From NCBI GenBank assembly GCA_021792615.1, contig JAJYUJ010000025.1, forward strand, positions 1-36,261: a stretch of 36,261 bases of DNA. The letters run 5' to 3'. Source of the DNA: a bacterium. GTDB lineage: Bacteria; JAMCPX01. Position 1 is the first letter of the stretch. Each line of letters begins with the position of its first letter. The notes beneath the pieces were generated by a model. That model was not told the DNA's origin, searched no databases, and saw only the letters and a list, made by a program, of their open reading frames with translations. The position numbers and the translations under genes are program-made. Shown here one piece after another: positions 1-7,706 of the stretch.

Positions 1-416
1 CTCTTGGAGGTGTTCGAGTAGCGCAGGTTTTAGAGAGGTTAAAGCAAACCAGAGGATTACCTGATAGAATCAGAACTGACAATGGTCCTGAATTTATCAG
101 CCGTGCACTGGATGAATGGGCATATCAAAACGGGGTGAAGCTGGACTTCATAGAACCGGGCAAGCCTACAGAGAATGCTTTTATAGAAAGCTTTAATGGG
201 CGGTTCCGGGATGAATGCCTGAACGAGAACTGGTTTATGACGCTTCAGGAAGCCAGGGAGATCATCGAGCACTGGCGGATTGATTACAATCAGAACCGGC
301 CACACGGCTCCTTAGAAGGACTTACACCAGATGAATTTGCAAGAAAGCACGAAATAATGGTAAGGAATAGTCAGGAAACTCTAATTCAAGGTGCTCTATA
401 AAATGGGGGAAGGTCA
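1..416 (+). mobile_element. IS3-family insertion sequence, right end only
   Basis: The window opens inside an insertion sequence. Its transposase reading frame ends at 401. The sequence then runs into ATGGGGGAAGGTCA, which ends in the CA dinucleotide typical of IS3-family termini (read inward: TGACCTTCCCCCAT). I place the right terminus at 416. The bases AAGG just outside could be part of a target duplication, but the left end is beyond the window, so this cannot be tested here. Confidence 0.7.
3..401 (+). CDS. IS3-family transposase OrfB, C-terminal part (5' end outside window)
   Basis: This is the C-terminal part of a DDE transposase with an rve integrase core. The frame is open from the first bases of the window, so the gene continues to the left. 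Visible motifs are RTDNGPEF, carrying the second catalytic Asp, and [15 protein letters not shown], carrying the catalytic Glu. These are followed by the family's conserved tail with [10 protein letters not shown] and TPDEFA. The stop codon sits within the insertion sequence's right terminus, as is usual for IS3 elements. Intact OrfB proteins of this family have roughly 270-290 residues, so about 130 residues are visible here. The element's activity cannot be judged because the first catalytic Asp and OrfA are missing from view. Confidence 0.9.
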
Positions 417-976
417 AAGGCATTAAGCTTAATTATTCCGATAAGAGCTTATCAATCTTGATATGGTTGATATGTATATGCCTTATCTTAATATGGTTGA
501 TATATATATGTCTTAAATAAATTATATAACCTTATCATAGTGCTATGGCAGGGCTTATAATATCAGTTAAGGTTATCTAACAATGATAAGGCTACCATAA
601 GCATTTATTAAGTCCATATATGATATATAGGCTAAAGATATTAATATAATGACCTTCCATGAGGTATTTAAAGCTGATAATAGGTCTATTATTATAATGA
701 CTATGGTATGGCTTATATATAATAGCAGTAAGGCATTAGCTTAATAATACTGATAAGAGCTTATCAACCTTGATATTATATGGTTGATATGTTCATGGTT
801 GATAGGAATATGGTTGATATAGCTTATCAGCGTTGACCTTATCAACTTTAATAAGGATAGGGCTATCAATGGCTATATCATAGACGGACGCCTTGTAATT
901 ATCATGCTAAGGACTGGATTTGCGGATACCGGATCAATAACAGGGGCATGGAATACTTGAAGTATAAAAATGAGAT
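417..976. repeat. AT-rich gene-free region with iteron-like direct repeats and short palindromes
   Basis: No gene is visible in these 560 bases. The stretch is very AT-rich and dominated by a few words. ATGGTTGATA(T) occurs five times, starting at 463, 493, 780, 795 and 810, so neighbouring copies are 30, 15 and 15 bp apart. GATAAG/CTTATC occurs nine times, including two near-palindromes GATAAGAGCTTATC at 440-453 and 752-765. A roughly 60-bp block beginning at 420 is repeated imperfectly from 733. Such arrays occur at plasmid or element origins, partition sites and excisionase-binding attachment regions. Which of these applies is not decidable from sequence alone. Confidence 0.75.
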
Positions 977-2912: not shown

Positions 2913-3184
2913 GTGGCGTTGGGAATTATACAGGGTAGGAGGTAGTAAAAAATGAATACAAACAATCAAAAAAAAGAACAATCTAATCCTGAACGCTTAA
3001 TTGATATTCGGGAATTATCCGATTTGACCGGCATGAAGGTATCGACTCTCTATCTATGGAGTTCAACCTCAAAAATTCCCGTCATTCGCATGGGAAAGTC
3101 CTTACGGTTTAGGTACTCTGATGTAATACAAACATTTCAGGATAAAAAATAAGTGGTGTTGGGAATTATGTAGAGTGTGGAGGA
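2913..3184 (+). repeat. Duplicated translation leader in front of two consecutive genes
   Basis: The sequence GTTGGGAATTAT plus a following AG-rich stretch ending in GGAGG occurs at 2913-2942, just before the AlpA-like gene. It recurs at 3153-3183, just before the ATPase gene. The two copies match at almost every position over about 30 bases, with one indel. Both supply the ribosome-binding site of the next start codon. They could be a shared protein- or RNA-binding operator, or the scar of a local duplication. Confidence 0.7.
2952..3152 (+). CDS. AlpA/excisionase-like helix-turn-helix protein
   Basis: This small DNA-binding protein of 66 residues belongs to the MerR-like HTH_17 (excisionase/AlpA) group. 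The segment from residue 16 onward reads LIDIRELSDLTGMKVSTLYLW and then a wing containing IPVIRMGKSLRF, the typical helix-turn-helix plus basic hairpin. Such proteins control excision or transcription of integrated elements. The start is well supported by GTAGGAGG seven bases upstream of the ATG. It lies directly upstream of the ATPase gene, and both have the same duplicated leader, so they are probably regulated together. It is divergent from the unknown gene at 977-2863. The family is clear; whether it acts as excisionase or transcriptional regulator here is not. Confidence 0.85.
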   Translation: MNTNNQKKEQSNPERLIDIRELSDLTGMKVSTLYLWSSTSKIPVIRMGKSLRFRYSDVIQTFQDKK

Positions 3185-3190
3185 TTGTTA

Positions 3191-4864
3191 ATGACCGAAA
3201 ATATCTCTTATAAAAAGGTGCGGGAACAGGTCGAGCAAATAGCCAAAATTCAGAGTCCTATAGAAAAGGAGCAATGGATTAAAGTGCTGGCAATGAATGC
3301 CCATGTTTCGGCGAAAGTTATTAAACAGGAATTAACAGAATATCAACGGCAAATTCTCACCGGCACAAGTGATGATCTTAGCTACACAGATCAGGAAAGG
3401 GCGCAAGCGTCTGAACTCTTAAAAAGCAATGTTCTTCTCAATAACTTTTTGGATGCCTGCCATACAAGATATGTCGGACGGGATAAGGAGCTTATCCTTC
3501 TAAAGCTCGCTACTTTGAGCAGACATTTCAATATGGGGCTATCTGTAGTTATCACTGGAACATCAGCGGTGGGCAAATCCGAGCTTATAAAAACAATTTT
3601 ACAAACAGTCTACCCGCCTGATTGCGAAGACTTTACACGAACGTCCGAGCAGTATCTACTCTATCGTGAAAAACCATTGGATCATAAAATTATAACTTTC
3701 TACGAAATGCACGGAGCGAAATCGGCTTCCTATCTTTTACGCACAGCATTATCAGAGGGGAATCTAAAGCTTGGCACTGTTATAAGCAATTCAAAGGTTG
3801 GAATCGTGCCTAAAGATATTGAGAAATCCGCAAAAGGACTTGTTATTTTTTCGTCAACTACTGAACAAAATCTTGATCCAGAACTTGAAACACGCTTGAT
3901 AAAAATAGAGATAACGCATGACGAACAATTAGCACGCAAGGTTTATCAGCTTAATGCTGATAGCAATGATAATACCTTCAAAGTATGGCAGTGTGCCGAC
4001 AGCCTTATAAAATCTTTGTCGGTAAAAATTCCCTTTGAAAAAGAGCTTGCGAATTTGTTCGCGACAAAGGAAGAACGCTATCTAAGAGACTTCAAAAAAG
4101 TAAAATTATTAATAACGGCATCTGCACTGTTCCATCAATACCAACGACCTCGTAAAAATGATAATTGTATCCTTGCAACGCAGGATGACTATGCTTTGGT
4201 GTACAGTTTGCGGGATTTAATCAGTCAGAGCGTGAATATTGCAGGCTCTCACATTATTGATTTTTTGCAAAAAGCTGAAGCATTAGGTTCACCTACTCGT
4301 GAGGAATTACAAAATGCTTTGAATAAGTCATGCGCAACTATGAAAAGGTACATTAAAACAACAATTGACTCTGACCTTATAGAAACTACTGGCAAAGGGA
4401 AAAGACAAACCATCAAAGTAGTGGATATTCCTAAGCCTATCTCTGCCTTACCTGCACCTGAAACCATTTTTAATGAAAAAAACACCTACAGCTTTGATGA
4501 GCCAGTGAGCCAAACAGGTCAAGTAATTAAAAACTATAACGGAAAATTGGCTCACAGCTATTTGAGCCAGAATGAGCCAGTGAGTTATTCCGATCTACCA
4601 TTTAGCTCATCGGTTCAAATCGGCTCAAACAGTGGTGATCCAGCGCAAAACCGCTTCAATAATACATCTTCTGAAAATGGCTCATCGGCTCACGAGAACT
4701 ATATACATAAAATATTATGGGTCGAGCCTGCCATCAAGGAACTATCAGCAGCACAGACTGAAGCACTTGAGGAACGCATAGCCATCATGGAGTTTGATGG
4801 GGAGCTATCGCACGAACAGGCTGTTCGGAGTGCAGTAAAGCAAATTTTTGATCGAGGGAGGTGA
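3191..4864 (+). CDS. P-loop ATPase of an integrative element, probable replication helicase or loader
   Basis: The protein has 557 residues. A Walker A motif GTSAVGKS is at about 123-130, and the hydrophobic stretch KIITFYEMHG about 40 residues later is a plausible Walker B strand. The first 50 residues, with SPIEKEQWIKVLA and a following helix, resemble linker segments seen near DnaG-type primase and primase-helicase domains. A replication role is therefore inferred, not proven. Residues from about 435 to 510 form a low-complexity Ser/Asn/Gln-rich linker, followed by a short helical C-terminus. The DNA encoding that linker carries a dense hexamer array (see the origin candidate at 4498-4719). 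I chose the ATG at 3191 over an upstream TTG because GGAGG lies at 3179-3183. The stop overlaps the ribosome site of the next gene. Confidence 0.75.
   Translation: MTENISYKKVREQVEQIAKIQSPIEKEQWIKVLAMNAHVSAKVIKQELTEYQRQILTGTSDDLSYTDQERAQASELLKSNVLLNNFLDACHTRYVGRDKELILLKLATLSRHFNMGLSVVITGTSAVGKSELIKTILQTVYPPDCEDFTRTSEQYLLYREKPLDHKIITFYEMHGAKSASYLLRTALSEGNLKLGTVISNSKVGIVPKDIEKSAKGLVIFSSTTEQNLDPELETRLIKIEITHDEQLARKVYQLNADSNDNTFKVWQCADSLIKSLSVKIPFEKELANLFATKEERYLRDFKKVKLLITASALFHQYQRPRKNDNCILATQDDYALVYSLRDLISQSVNIAGSHIIDFLQKAEALGSPTREELQNALNKSCATMKRYIKTTIDSDLIETTGKGKRQTIKVVDIPKPISALPAPETIFNEKNTYSFDEPVSQTGQVIKNYNGKLAHSYLSQNEPVSYSDLPFSSSVQIGSNSGDPAQNRFNNTSSENGSSAHENYIHKILWVEPAIKELSAAQTEALEERIAIMEFDGELSHEQAVRSAVKQIFDRGR
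4498..4719. repeat. Intragenic iteron-like array plus AT-rich stretch; candidate replication origin
   Basis: TGAGCC or its complement GGCTCA occurs eight times, starting at 4498, 4506, 4549, 4563, 4573, 4622, 4679 and 4687. The first, second, fourth and fifth copies are in plus orientation, the others in minus. The exact string TGAGCCAGTGAG appears at 4498-4509 and again at 4573-4584. Right after the last copy, 4697-4718 is almost purely A and T, like a DNA-unwinding element. Iterons inside the low-complexity linker of a replication gene, next to an AT-rich region, are the known layout of the lambda O-gene origin. The assignment as origin is inference. Confidence 0.5.
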
Positions 4865-4869
4865 TGATC

Positions 4870-5055
4870 ATGGCTAAGGGAAAAGAACCGATGGAAATAT
4901 CGGTCAAATTGCCTAAAGGGTTGTACGGCACATTGTTGCAAATTTCCGATAGGGATAATGTCAACATGGATGATCTTCTGACAGACATCGTTGAAGATTA
5001 CTTTGAATCAGGAGATGAGCCGGAGGTCAACCCCGATGAAAATCCGGAGGAATAA
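4870..5055 (+). CDS. Small ribbon-helix-helix-like protein (single module)
   Basis: This 62-residue protein has one module: a beta strand MEISVKLPKG, then a helix LYGTLLQISD, a loop, and a second helix MDDLLTDIVEDYFES, ending in an acidic tail. The layout matches the ribbon-helix-helix fold, but no family name can be given with certainty. The ATG at 4870 is preferred over 4864 because GGAGG at 4857-4861 is then eight bases away. The gene follows the ATPase gene with essentially no gap, so it is probably co-transcribed and translated with it. The two modules of the next gene's product are recognisably similar, so the pair are paralogues. It may be a DNA-binding maintenance or copy-control factor of the element. 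Confidence 0.65.
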   Translation: MAKGKEPMEISVKLPKGLYGTLLQISDRDNVNMDDLLTDIVEDYFESGDEPEVNPDENPEE

Positions 5056-5109: not shown

Positions 5110-5511
5110 ATGAAAACAAAAAAAGTTAAATCTCAAGATGATCCTTTTATGACGGATACCGAGTCAATACGTTTGGACAAGTCAAAGCACCTGATTGAAG
5201 TAATAGTCGAGATGCCGTTAGGGGTACACGCTGAACTGTTAGAGGTAGCTAAAAAGGGAAAAAAATCTATAGATGATCTTGTGAAAACAGCCATCAACAA
5301 CTTTTTTTATGAATTTCACGCTAAACAAGATGATGCAATGTGTTCTATTCCGAAATGGGTGATGATCAAAATACCTCAAGAGATGTTTACTGATTTAGTG
5401 TTGATGACAAAATTTCGAGACGGAAAACCTGTTTCGGCTGACGACATAGTAACAGAGGCAGTGGAAAACGAGCTTGCAGTCATCAAAAAAATAACCCTGA
5501 AGGGAACTTAA
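5110..5511 (+). CDS. Tandem two-module ribbon-helix-helix-like protein
   Basis: The protein has 133 residues with two copies of the module found once in the upstream neighbour. The first runs from about residue 28 (IEVIVEMPLGVHAELLEVA, then SIDDLVKTAINNFF). The second runs from about residue 82 (WVMIKIPQEMFTDLVLM, then SADDIVTEAVENEL). The pattern is beta strand, helix, loop with Asp-Asp, helix in each. A ribbon-helix-helix protein normally acts as a dimer, so a fused two-module chain could be a single-chain version of that dimer (inference). The start is supported by AAGGAGG seven bases upstream. It lies after a terminator and before the serine recombinase gene, so it may be expressed separately from the ATPase. 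Function unknown. Confidence 0.65.
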   Translation: MKTKKVKSQDDPFMTDTESIRLDKSKHLIEVIVEMPLGVHAELLEVAKKGKKSIDDLVKTAINNFFYEFHAKQDDAMCSIPKWVMIKIPQEMFTDLVLMTKFRDGKPVSADDIVTEAVENELAVIKKITLKGT

Positions 5512-5526
5512 CAAAAGGCAATAATG

Positions 5527-6132
5527 ATGAAAACAGCACTCTATCTCCGGGTGAGTACCGACAGACAAGAAGTTGAAAATCAGCTTGAACCGCTTACTAC
5601 CTTTGCACAACAGCGGGGGCTTGAAATAGTGAAGGTTTACCGAGATACAGCAACTGGCAAGAACAGCGACCGTGAAGCGTTTAAACAAATGCTTAAGGAT
5701 GCACACCGGCACAATTTTGACGTCATAGTTGTCTGGGCTTTGGATCGCTTGAGTCGGGAAGGTATGAGCAGGACTATTCAACTGATTGAGATGCTTCAGC
5801 GCATGGGGATCGCCGTGATCAGTTATTCCGAACCATATCTCGATACTACAAATGAGCTTGCCCGCAATATCCTTCTTGCTGTCGTGTCTACTTTGGCTAA
5901 AGGAGAGCGGGAAAGAATATCCGAGCGAACAAAAGCAGGGCTTGCCAGACTAAAAAAATCCGGTAAGAAACTCGGACGTCCGGAGATTGATCTAAAAAAA
6001 CGTGCTGAAGCAATTAAACTTGTTGAAGGCGGTATGAGTATGAGGAAGGCAGGCCAGCAGCTTGGAATCAACCGATCGAGTATTTCAAACTGGCTAAAGG
6101 CTGGCGAAAAAAGGGGGGGCAGAAATGGATAG
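5527..6132 (+). CDS. Serine recombinase (resolvase/invertase family)
   Basis: This small serine recombinase has about 201 residues. The catalytic Ser is in ALYLRVSTDRQ at about residue 10. Conserved motifs DTATGKNSDREAF, VVWALDRLSREG, ERERISERTKAGLA and the KLGRP hinge follow in order. A C-terminal helix-turn-helix (MRKAGQQLGINRSSISNWL) completes the resolvase/invertase layout, and the length is normal. It would cut and rejoin DNA at specific sites, for example to resolve multimers of the element or invert a segment; no site can be assigned by eye. Two ATG codons are adjacent; I chose the second because family proteins begin close to the first strand. It precedes the tyrosine integrase, so the element carries both recombinase types. 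Confidence 0.92.
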   Translation: MKTALYLRVSTDRQEVENQLEPLTTFAQQRGLEIVKVYRDTATGKNSDREAFKQMLKDAHRHNFDVIVVWALDRLSREGMSRTIQLIEMLQRMGIAVISYSEPYLDTTNELARNILLAVVSTLAKGERERISERTKAGLARLKKSGKKLGRPEIDLKKRAEAIKLVEGGMSMRKAGQQLGINRSSISNWLKAGEKRGGRNG

Positions 6133-6565
6133 GCGGTTTCATTCTGATGACTTCAACATCGAAGCTATGAGAATAAACGGTCGTTTTTTAGACACGGTAG
6201 TTTTTAAATCAGGTTTGACATTAACCATTAAACTATTCATAGATCATCTCAGTTTATGCTTTTATACACCAGCTAAAGCAATGAATAAGCTATTTCTGGA
6301 CACGATCTCGACGCCGTCCGTAAGTAACTACATACCCCGCCAAGCAGGACACAATAATCTCTCTGTAACAACGTATGTTTATAAGGCCTTCAATAGCACT
6401 TTTGGCAGTGGTTTTATACAACACAAAGTAAGTCATGCAAACAGATATGAAAGGGTAAAAAATAATTGCAATTCTTATGCCGGTAAAGTATATTTATCAT
6501 GGCGTAGGACTGCCATATTTTTTAAAATCTTAAATACAAAAGGGGAGGTGAGACAATGTATTTAA
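6125..6565 (+). CDS. Doubtful open frame between the two recombinase genes
   Basis: This frame of 146 codons overlaps the end of the serine recombinase gene by 8 bases and the start of the integrase gene by 10. The product matches nothing I recognise: no clear domain, no signal peptide, and a composition without a strong protein-like pattern. It has no good ribosome site of its own. The stretch from 6133 to 6555 may instead be untranslated spacer or a decayed gene carrying regulatory or recombination sites. Another reading is a small element-specific protein translated by coupling. I list it so that these 420 bases are not left unexplained. Confidence 0.25.
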   Translation: MDRRFHSDDFNIEAMRINGRFLDTVVFKSGLTLTIKLFIDHLSLCFYTPAKAMNKLFLDTISTPSVSNYIPRQAGHNNLSVTTYVYKAFNSTFGSGFIQHKVSHANRYERVKNNCNSYAGKVYLSWRRTAIFFKILNTKGEVRQCI

Positions 6566-7602
6566 GGGGAGCAATATGGTGGACGCAATTCAAACGTAAC
6601 GGTAAGCTTATAAGGCTATCAACAGAAACAAAGGATAAAGGCGCAGCAAGGAAAAAAGAGGTTGAGTTGATAACAGACTTTGACAAGCATGGATTGAGGA
6701 ATGAGGGTAAAAAGAAAACATTCAAGGATATGACGGATCGGTATATGCAAGAATATGCTACACAAAAAGCCCCTAAGAGCATGTTAAGGGATACTATATC
6801 TTTAAAACACTTGTTACCTGTGTTTGGTGATATGCCTCTCATCAAGATAACACCCGACAAGATAGTGAGATACAAAACACAACGTAGAAATGAGGGTGCT
6901 TCAGCTTCAAGCATAAACAAGGAATTAGCCTTTTCCAAGCACGCCTTTAATCTTGCAATCAAGGAATGGGAATGGATCAAAGACAATCCATTTACAAAAG
7001 TTAGTATGGAAAAAATGCCGTCCGGACGGGTAAAATATCTTCAAGTGGATGAATTCAACAAGCTATATGTGGCTTGTGACGAGAACCTAAAGCCCATCAT
7101 GCTATTGGCAGCCAATACGGGACTGAGACAAGACAACATTTTGAGTCTTACATGGCAGCAGGTCAATTTCAAAAATGAGATGATCACAGTTGAACAGACA
7201 AAGAACCATGAGCGGCTCGGTATTCCCATGAACAAGACCATTAAAACCCTGTTATTAGGGCTAAACAAGATAAGGCATATAGACAGTCCGTACCTATTCC
7301 ATACTTCCGCAGGCGCAAAACTTTGCAATACGCTGGTAAGCAGATGGTTCAGGCAAGCTTGTAAAAAAGCAGGCATACAAGATTTCAGATTCCACGACAT
7401 GCGGCATCACTTTGCATCGCAATTGGTTCAAAGCGGCGTTAACTTGTATGTCGTTCAGCAGTTACTCGGACACAAGACAATAACTATGACTCAAAGGTAT
7501 TCGCATCTTGCACCTGATAATCTCAAAAGTAGTGTAGCTGTACTGGATCAATTTCAAGGAAGGGTGATCACAATGGGGGATCACAGTGGTGTTCAGCAAT
7601 GA
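6556..7602 (+). CDS. Tyrosine recombinase / phage-type integrase
   Basis: This 348-residue protein catalyses site-specific integration and excision. An N-terminal arm-binding part is followed by a SAM-like core-binding domain (about 55-145). The catalytic domain contains Arg191 (NTGLRQDN), Lys216, His280 and Arg283 (HDMRHHFAS), His306 (LGHKT) and the nucleophile Tyr315 (TQRYSHL). All residues needed for activity are present. GGGGAGG lies upstream of the ATG. The gene ends 33 bases before the 3' end of tRNA-Cys and points toward it. This is the usual arrangement for an element integrated into a tRNA gene, which makes tRNA-Cys the likely attachment site. The distal attachment copy is not seen in this window. 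Confidence 0.95.
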   Translation: MYLRGAIWWTQFKRNGKLIRLSTETKDKGAARKKEVELITDFDKHGLRNEGKKKTFKDMTDRYMQEYATQKAPKSMLRDTISLKHLLPVFGDMPLIKITPDKIVRYKTQRRNEGASASSINKELAFSKHAFNLAIKEWEWIKDNPFTKVSMEKMPSGRVKYLQVDEFNKLYVACDENLKPIMLLAANTGLRQDNILSLTWQQVNFKNEMITVEQTKNHERLGIPMNKTIKTLLLGLNKIRHIDSPYLFHTSAGAKLCNTLVSRWFRQACKKAGIQDFRFHDMRHHFASQLVQSGVNLYVVQQLLGHKTITMTQRYSHLAPDNLKSSVAVLDQFQGRVITMGDHSGVQQ

Positions 7603-7660
7603 CAATAACAACTTCTAACTCCTTGAAAAATCAAAAGGCGGCATCCGGATTTGAACCGGA
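7603..7660. other. Candidate attachment-site border at the tRNA-Cys 3' end
   Basis: The integrase gene abuts the 3' half of the minus-strand tRNA-Cys. By analogy with tRNA-integrating elements, the crossover would lie in the T-arm or acceptor end (about 7636-7660). I searched 1-7600 by eye for a second copy of the tRNA 3' end (GGCATCCGGATTTGAACCGG). I found only a short, unconvincing GGATTTG near 916. The other border is probably left of the window. Confidence 0.35.
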
Positions 7661-7706
7661 GATAACGGTTTTGCAGACCGCTGCCTTACCACTTGGCTAT
7701 GCCGCC
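7636..7706 (-). tRNA. tRNA-Cys (GCA)
   Basis: This is a 71-base cloverleaf on the minus strand. The acceptor stem pairs GGCGGCA with TGCCGCC, the anticodon loop reads CTGCAAA with anticodon GCA, and the T-arm is CCGGTTCAAATCCGG. The CCA end is not encoded, because TTT follows the discriminator base. Its 3' end faces the integrase, which suggests it serves as integration target while remaining intact. Confidence 0.96.

Follow-up and report, generated by a model that had tools for sequence, protein, structure and literature searches.

A mirrored array of TGAGCC hexamers inside the gene of a predicted MCM-like helicase: a candidate replication origin of a bacterial integrative element

SaPI Rep and SCCmec Cch2 recognize iterons that lie directly beside their own genes (PMC7581432). 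In SaPI, the C-terminal domain of Rep recognizes multiple short iterons 3' of the gene, apparently as two hexamers, and SCCmec Cch has been described as MCM-like, with two-hexamer initiation proposed (PMC7581432). The locus described here lies on a 36,261-nt stretch of bacterial DNA (contig JAJYUJ010000025.1, assembly GCA_021792615.1), which was analyzed over its whole length and is hereafter called the window. It resembles SCCmec Cch/Cch2 in that an integrative-element helicase is encoded beside recombinase genes and the iterons adjoin the helicase gene, whereas SCCmec has a few direct repeats after the stop codon in place of the in-gene, 12-site dyad of the window (PMC7581432). With SaPI Rep and its origin it shares a self-encoded helicase and iterons at the 3' side of the gene (PMC7581432); SaPI differs in being a staphylococcal pathogenicity island with the origin downstream of the gene and a helicase of another family by sequence. 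Unlike Cch and Cch2, the window protein contains no DUF927 or D5 match (D5_N/COG3378) in Pfam and NCBIfam scans. By analogy, the window helicase may work like SCC Cch, Cch2 and SaPI5 Rep, yet it would not be a member of those families.

Other replicons carry the origin within the initiator gene itself, as in phage lambda, whose origin lies inside the O gene. The same holds for the RepA_N plasmids pSK41 and pSK1, and in pSK41 the residues encoded at the origin are dispensable (PMC5703833); in the repABC plasmid p42d, the origin lies within the repC coding sequence (PMC3155836). All of these differ from the window in having non-helicase initiators and no mirrored array, their boxes being central direct repeats (absent in repC). 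The pRN1 protein ORF904 is, like the window protein, a replication protein of the primase-helicase type whose gene bears a cis element at its 3' end, but that element is a stem-loop origin and not an iteron array, and the protein combines an AEP primase with an SF3 helicase (PMC4234260). The primase-helicases of XerC plasmids (NZ_CP072857, NZ_CP055112, and Leptospira plasmids) share with the window a helicase half of ∼30% identity, a 3'-end array and a nearby tyrosine recombinase, and are unlike it in their fused DnaG-type primase and in arrays built of 11-bp phased direct repeats of other words. Because in-gene and just-downstream origins are known from lambda O, pSK41, SaPI, and SCCmec, the layout of the window is a variant of described arrangements and introduces no undescribed principle; the suggestion of an undescribed replication module, made in a preliminary description of this DNA, is therefore not upheld.

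Eight exact copies of TGAGCC/GGCTCA lie within 195 bp of the window, at 4498, 4506, 4563, and 4573 on the forward strand and at 4549, 4622, 4679, and 4687 on the reverse strand, and they occupy all three codon frames (Table 1). These represent 8 of the 18 copies in the window; the chance expectation is 15.8 copies per window, or ∼0.09 per 195 bp. Both the count and the expectation of roughly 0.1 given in the preliminary description are thereby confirmed, and the array is the strongest and densest hexamer cluster of the window. An exact repeat that had been reported as 12 bases long is also real, although its length is 13 bp (ATGAGCCAGTGAG, at 4497–4509 and 4572–4584). When codons were resampled synonymously, no hexamer reached more than five copies in 5,000 trials, against the eight observed.

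The dyad arrangement of these sites had gone unnoticed. Twelve TGAGCC-type hexamers, the eight exact copies plus four degenerate ones (TGAGTT at 4581, TGAGCT at 4604, TGAACC at 4612, and TGATCC at 4636), mirror a single center at 4595. Exact sites are paired with exact sites at +4498/−4687, +4506/−4679, and +4563/−4622, and with degenerate sites at −4549/+4636 (TGATCC) and +4573/−4612 (TGAACC), while the pair +4581 (TGAGTT)/−4604 (TGAGCT) is degenerate on both sides. Allowing at most one mismatch about this center, a mirror partner exists for all eight exact sites, compared with a maximum of six in 20,000 random placements. The hexamers had been picked before the symmetry was seen, and the degenerate sites were noticed along with it; for this reason the complementarity of mirrored bases in the hexamer columns (33 of 36, vs. 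20 of 79 elsewhere, which is the chance level) is a slightly favorable figure. The symmetry of the array is one of site placement and not that of a decayed palindrome. The A/T stretch beyond the array, to which the preliminary description had drawn attention, does exist, and the helicase gene contains one more like it; given that 86 windows within the element are equally A/T-rich, it is unremarkable and by itself weak evidence. No DnaA box was found near the array within one mismatch, the nearest having two.

Table 1. Features of the integrative element in the window, with the TGAGCC array of a phage contig for comparison.
Feature	Position	Strand	Remarks
Second repeat cluster	440–870		Noncoding, 3' of ORF 977–2965; rival origin or regulatory region
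ORF, 662 aa	977–2965	−	C-terminal HTH hint; 3' end faces second repeat cluster
HTH_17/AlpA-like small DNA-binding protein	2952–3152	+	
MCM-like AAA+ helicase gene (predicted)	3185–4864	+	Start TTG 3185 or ATG 3191
Dyad array	4498–4692	both	12 TGAGCC-type hexamers, center 4595; candidate initiator-helicase sites/origin
Left outer pair	4498–4511	+	Spacing 8; mirror of 4679–4692
GGCTCA-N8-TGAGCC unit	4549–4568		Mirror is GGCTCA-N8-TGATCC at 4622–4641
Left inner triplet	4563–4586	+	Spacings 10 and 8; mirror is 4604–4627, spacings 8 and 10
Right outer pair	4679–4692	−	Spacing 8
A/T-rich stretch	4697–4718		20/22 A+T; possible unwinding element; unexceptional for element
Arc-like (ribbon-helix-helix-like) small protein	4861–5055	+	Weak match
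Second Arc/RHH-like protein	5110–5511	+	Very weak match
Serine resolvase	5524–6132	+	
Tyrosine integrase	6556–7602	+	Beside tRNA-Cys
att core	7633–7676		44 bp, exact; at 3' end of tRNA-Cys (7636–7706, −)
Phage TGAGCC array	L131:9511–9812		15 sites

Residues 435–510 of the encoded protein (nt 4496–4723) are predicted to be disordered by AlphaFold2 and coincide with the array, which agrees with its earlier placement in a low-complexity linker. A winged-helix-like region follows the AAA+ core at about residues 360–410. Residues 64–325 are ∼30% identical to the helicase half of plasmid CHC2/Toprim primase-helicases, and tblastn matches to the homologous AAA+ region reached E-values of 2e-18 among plasmids and 1.5e-31 in genome G212. 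The CHC2 zinc finger and Toprim primase present in these relatives are absent from the window protein by Pfam scan. From these comparisons the protein appears to be a primase-less relative of the CHC2/Toprim primase-helicase family, corresponding to the helicase half only, and not the unrelated ATPase it had been taken for. Close homologues were found neither in viral contigs and phages nor in the window's own phylum or ∼590 genomes, where matches were partial (26–32%), the best relative reaching 32% identity over part of the protein only. Structural models were of moderate quality (mean pLDDT of 72 for the model built with 43 relatives, and 77), and the top 50 Foldseek matches in the PDB were all MCM helicases whichever of the two models, full or trimmed, was submitted, with best E-values of 1.3e-9 and 4.6e-10, respectively (TMq about 0.5 for the trimmed one). 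Searching the PDB by sequence, including by profile, gave no relevant match, so that the MCM assignment stands on the predicted fold; we accordingly refer to the product as a predicted MCM-type AAA+ helicase.

A genome scan with the single window protein gave no match. When an alignment of its relatives was run against a collection of 84,980 species genomes, a wide family emerged, with at least 545 stretches confirmed. Small circular plasmids or elements carry these CHC2/Toprim primase-helicase relatives next to XerC-type tyrosine recombinases. The best 77 of these loci were fetched, and in their primase-helicase genes the position of the largest 7-mer cluster has a single peak, within the final 360 nt; 74 full-length genes, all of them best-scoring members, were sampled for phased repeats, defined as at least three exact 6-mer pairs per gene at distances of 11, 21, 22, 32, 33, 43, or 44 bp. 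Phased exact repeats (11/21/22 bp) occupied the last 330 coding bases in 68 of these 74 best-scoring genes, vs. 9, 3, 5, and 0 of 74 in four control windows taken from these genes and 4 of 70 in the sequence downstream. Half of all exact 6-mer repeat pairs in the 3' ends of the family fall at the seven distances listed, and since neither 11 nor 22 is a multiple of three, the phasing is not due to protein repetition. The repeat words vary among members (GGTCGGGG, AAGTCAGGG, TCGCGGGG, CTTGCGGG, and others). Two of the genes are on the complete small plasmids NZ_CP072857 and NZ_CP055112, for which the (incomplete) gene table gives no further annotated replication protein; the former, an 11.3-kb Lonsdalea plasmid, carries the repeat words CAAGTCTG with its replication gene. 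In the distant members L107–L110, the arrays lie directly past the stop codon, and the nearest relative by E-value, L106, has no clear array. The window gene likewise has a 3'-end repeat array, with 8/10-bp spacings in a dyad in place of the 11-bp phasing of the family. We did not find the family-wide form of this array in the searchable literature, nor a description there of a CHC2 primase/XerC/Rhs replicon (most subscription papers being outside that scope).

The element itself is integrative, as had been proposed: it carries an integrase and a serine resolvase, and matching tRNA-Cys att cores mark both of its ends, the second copy lying on contig C23 near 63,975–64,020. The contig starts within an IS3-type transposase copy (window positions 1–401), 127 bp of which match the end of contig C33 exactly. 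Because the assembly is broken at this repeated IS, the element is only partly assembled on its left side, where a primase may have escaped notice. A 24-bp near-repeat (83%) precedes the starts of both the AlpA-like gene (2913–2936) and the helicase gene (3153–3176) and is probably a duplicated leader.

The same hexamer recurs in a group of related phage contigs (L131, L168, L152, and L145), in which as many as 15 TGAGCC sites occupy the noncoding DNA immediately after the 3' end of a Prim-Pol/PriCT/AAA_25 replication gene. The units GGCTCA-N8-TGAGCC and TGAGCC-N2-TGAGCC are common to the phage and window arrays; the pattern used to search viral contigs contained the N2 unit and did not contain the N8 unit. 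Across L131, L168, and L152, the hexamer columns vary at 0 of 90 positions, vs. 47 of 271 for the other columns (P = 7e-7). The 16-base array pattern was present in 58 viral contigs, mostly by chance, and the four named here are the informative ones; L122 and L125 were rejected as parallels, having 8-bp tandem repeats instead. The phage Prim-Pol protein was likewise rejected as a homologue of the helicase. As the two proteins show no similarity past the P-loop, the common word may have arisen by convergence or may point to a DNA-binding domain of a type that both possess, and we regard the phage parallel as a lead, not as proof.

Taken together, the array is probably the origin from which the integrative element replicates, and the protein that binds it is probably the MCM-like helicase encoded around it. 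Repeated sites are arrayed inside an initiator-type gene, as in iteron-type origins, and this reading is favored because the array is a DNA-level feature, is located where an MCM-like helicase has its disordered linker, and has counterparts at the same place in distant relatives of that gene. The candidate origin of the preliminary description thus remains the best-supported interpretation, although one supported in part. The winged-helix region of the helicase would be a likelier reader of the array than the AlpA-like or ribbon-helix-helix proteins, whose proposed binding finds no support here. In the mechanism we propose, the integrase would first excise the element as a circle, helicase protomers would bind the hexamers via the winged-helix region after the AAA+ core, and the two mirrored half-arrays would load two opposed hexamers that then melt the A/T-rich flank. 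Since the window variant has no fused primase, primers would be made by host DnaG or by a primase encoded in the unassembled left portion. Location of the origin within the initiator gene would tie the initiator to its own origin, and the disordered linker would keep the coding cost of such an arrangement small.

Small DNA-binding genes flank the helicase gene, and a phage with a TGAGCC array also encodes an HTH_17-like protein (judged by eye), both of which would fit an operator or partition-like site at which an AlpA-like or RHH factor, or a segregation protein, controls the operon or distributes the element. We consider this rather unlikely: the array comprises twelve sites over 195 bp, mid-operon and distant from any start, no ParA/ParB gene was seen, and across the family the arrays are tied to where the primase-helicase gene ends, not to AlpA-like or RHH regulators.

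It is also unlikely that the origin is instead the second, noncoding repeat cluster, served by the 662-aa ORF, with the TGAGCC array in an auxiliary role (incompatibility, handcuffing, or copy control). In this cluster, GGTTGATA recurs at a 15-bp phase, CTTATC/GATAAG words occur several times, and a 39-bp sequence is directly repeated at 426 and 738; its z-score in shuffling equals that of the TGAGCC array, its repeats too lie 3' of a large gene, and the product shows a hint of a C-terminal HTH. However, no relative of the 662-aa ORF was detectable in Pfam, PHROGs, NCBIfam, plasmids, viral contigs, or 98 genomes, whereas the helicase is a member of a replication family.

With two recombinases in the element, and recombinase genes coming after the array in many relatives, the array might serve as an accessory recombination site of the serine resolvase or the tyrosine integrase. 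The genome also contains a sibling element (L179, contig C31:44000–58790) that makes this improbable, in that its resolvase and integrase are 87 and 58% identical to those of the window (88% DNA identity across the resolvase region), but it lacks both a helicase and a TGAGCC array, a joint absence that we count in favor of the origin reading. In addition, the att core is 2.9 kb from the array, and a res site consists of three subsites, a layout unlike the spacing observed here.

Although the linker is of low complexity and disordered, a chance, codon, or low-complexity source of the words can be set aside, given their occurrence in three frames and on both strands, their perfect dyad placement, and the resampling maximum of five against eight.

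More tentatively, and with somewhat less than even confidence, we suggest that the origin reading extends to a class of mobile replicons that is very widespread in bacteria (at least 545 matched stretches, in many phyla); each would have an MCM-like helicase, in most cases joined to a DnaG-type primase, and an iteron origin in the 3' coding tail of its gene, the words diversifying like plasmid specificity groups. The window would then represent a primase-less member whose 12-site dyad loads two opposed rings, a bacterial counterpart of head-to-head MCM loading. If so, the end of its primase-helicase gene would reveal the origin of each plasmid or element in this large, unnamed family, and the word of each member would predict the origin recognized by its helicase. 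The locus would also offer a small bacterial system for opposed loading of MCM-type rings on a symmetric origin, and an instance of a coding sequence shaped by a DNA-binding array within the disordered part of the initiator.

Two further observations concern the wider family. Within the last 130 nt of the genes at L023–L099, many members share, 3' of the iterons, the motifs AAAACGC (∼−75), TCGTAC/G (∼−45), and TTTAGCYG (∼−22), which are possibly unwinding or recombination signals; TTTAGCYG as a recombinase core was rejected, being found in just 16 of 74 family tails. The primase-helicase/XerC modules are often located beside Rhs/YD-repeat fragments, toxin-immunity-like genes, and SymE-type genes, also on circular plasmids (neighbors of this kind were seen at L017, L018, L019, L020, L106, L109, L182, and L183), and the module may shuttle Rhs C-terminal cassettes.
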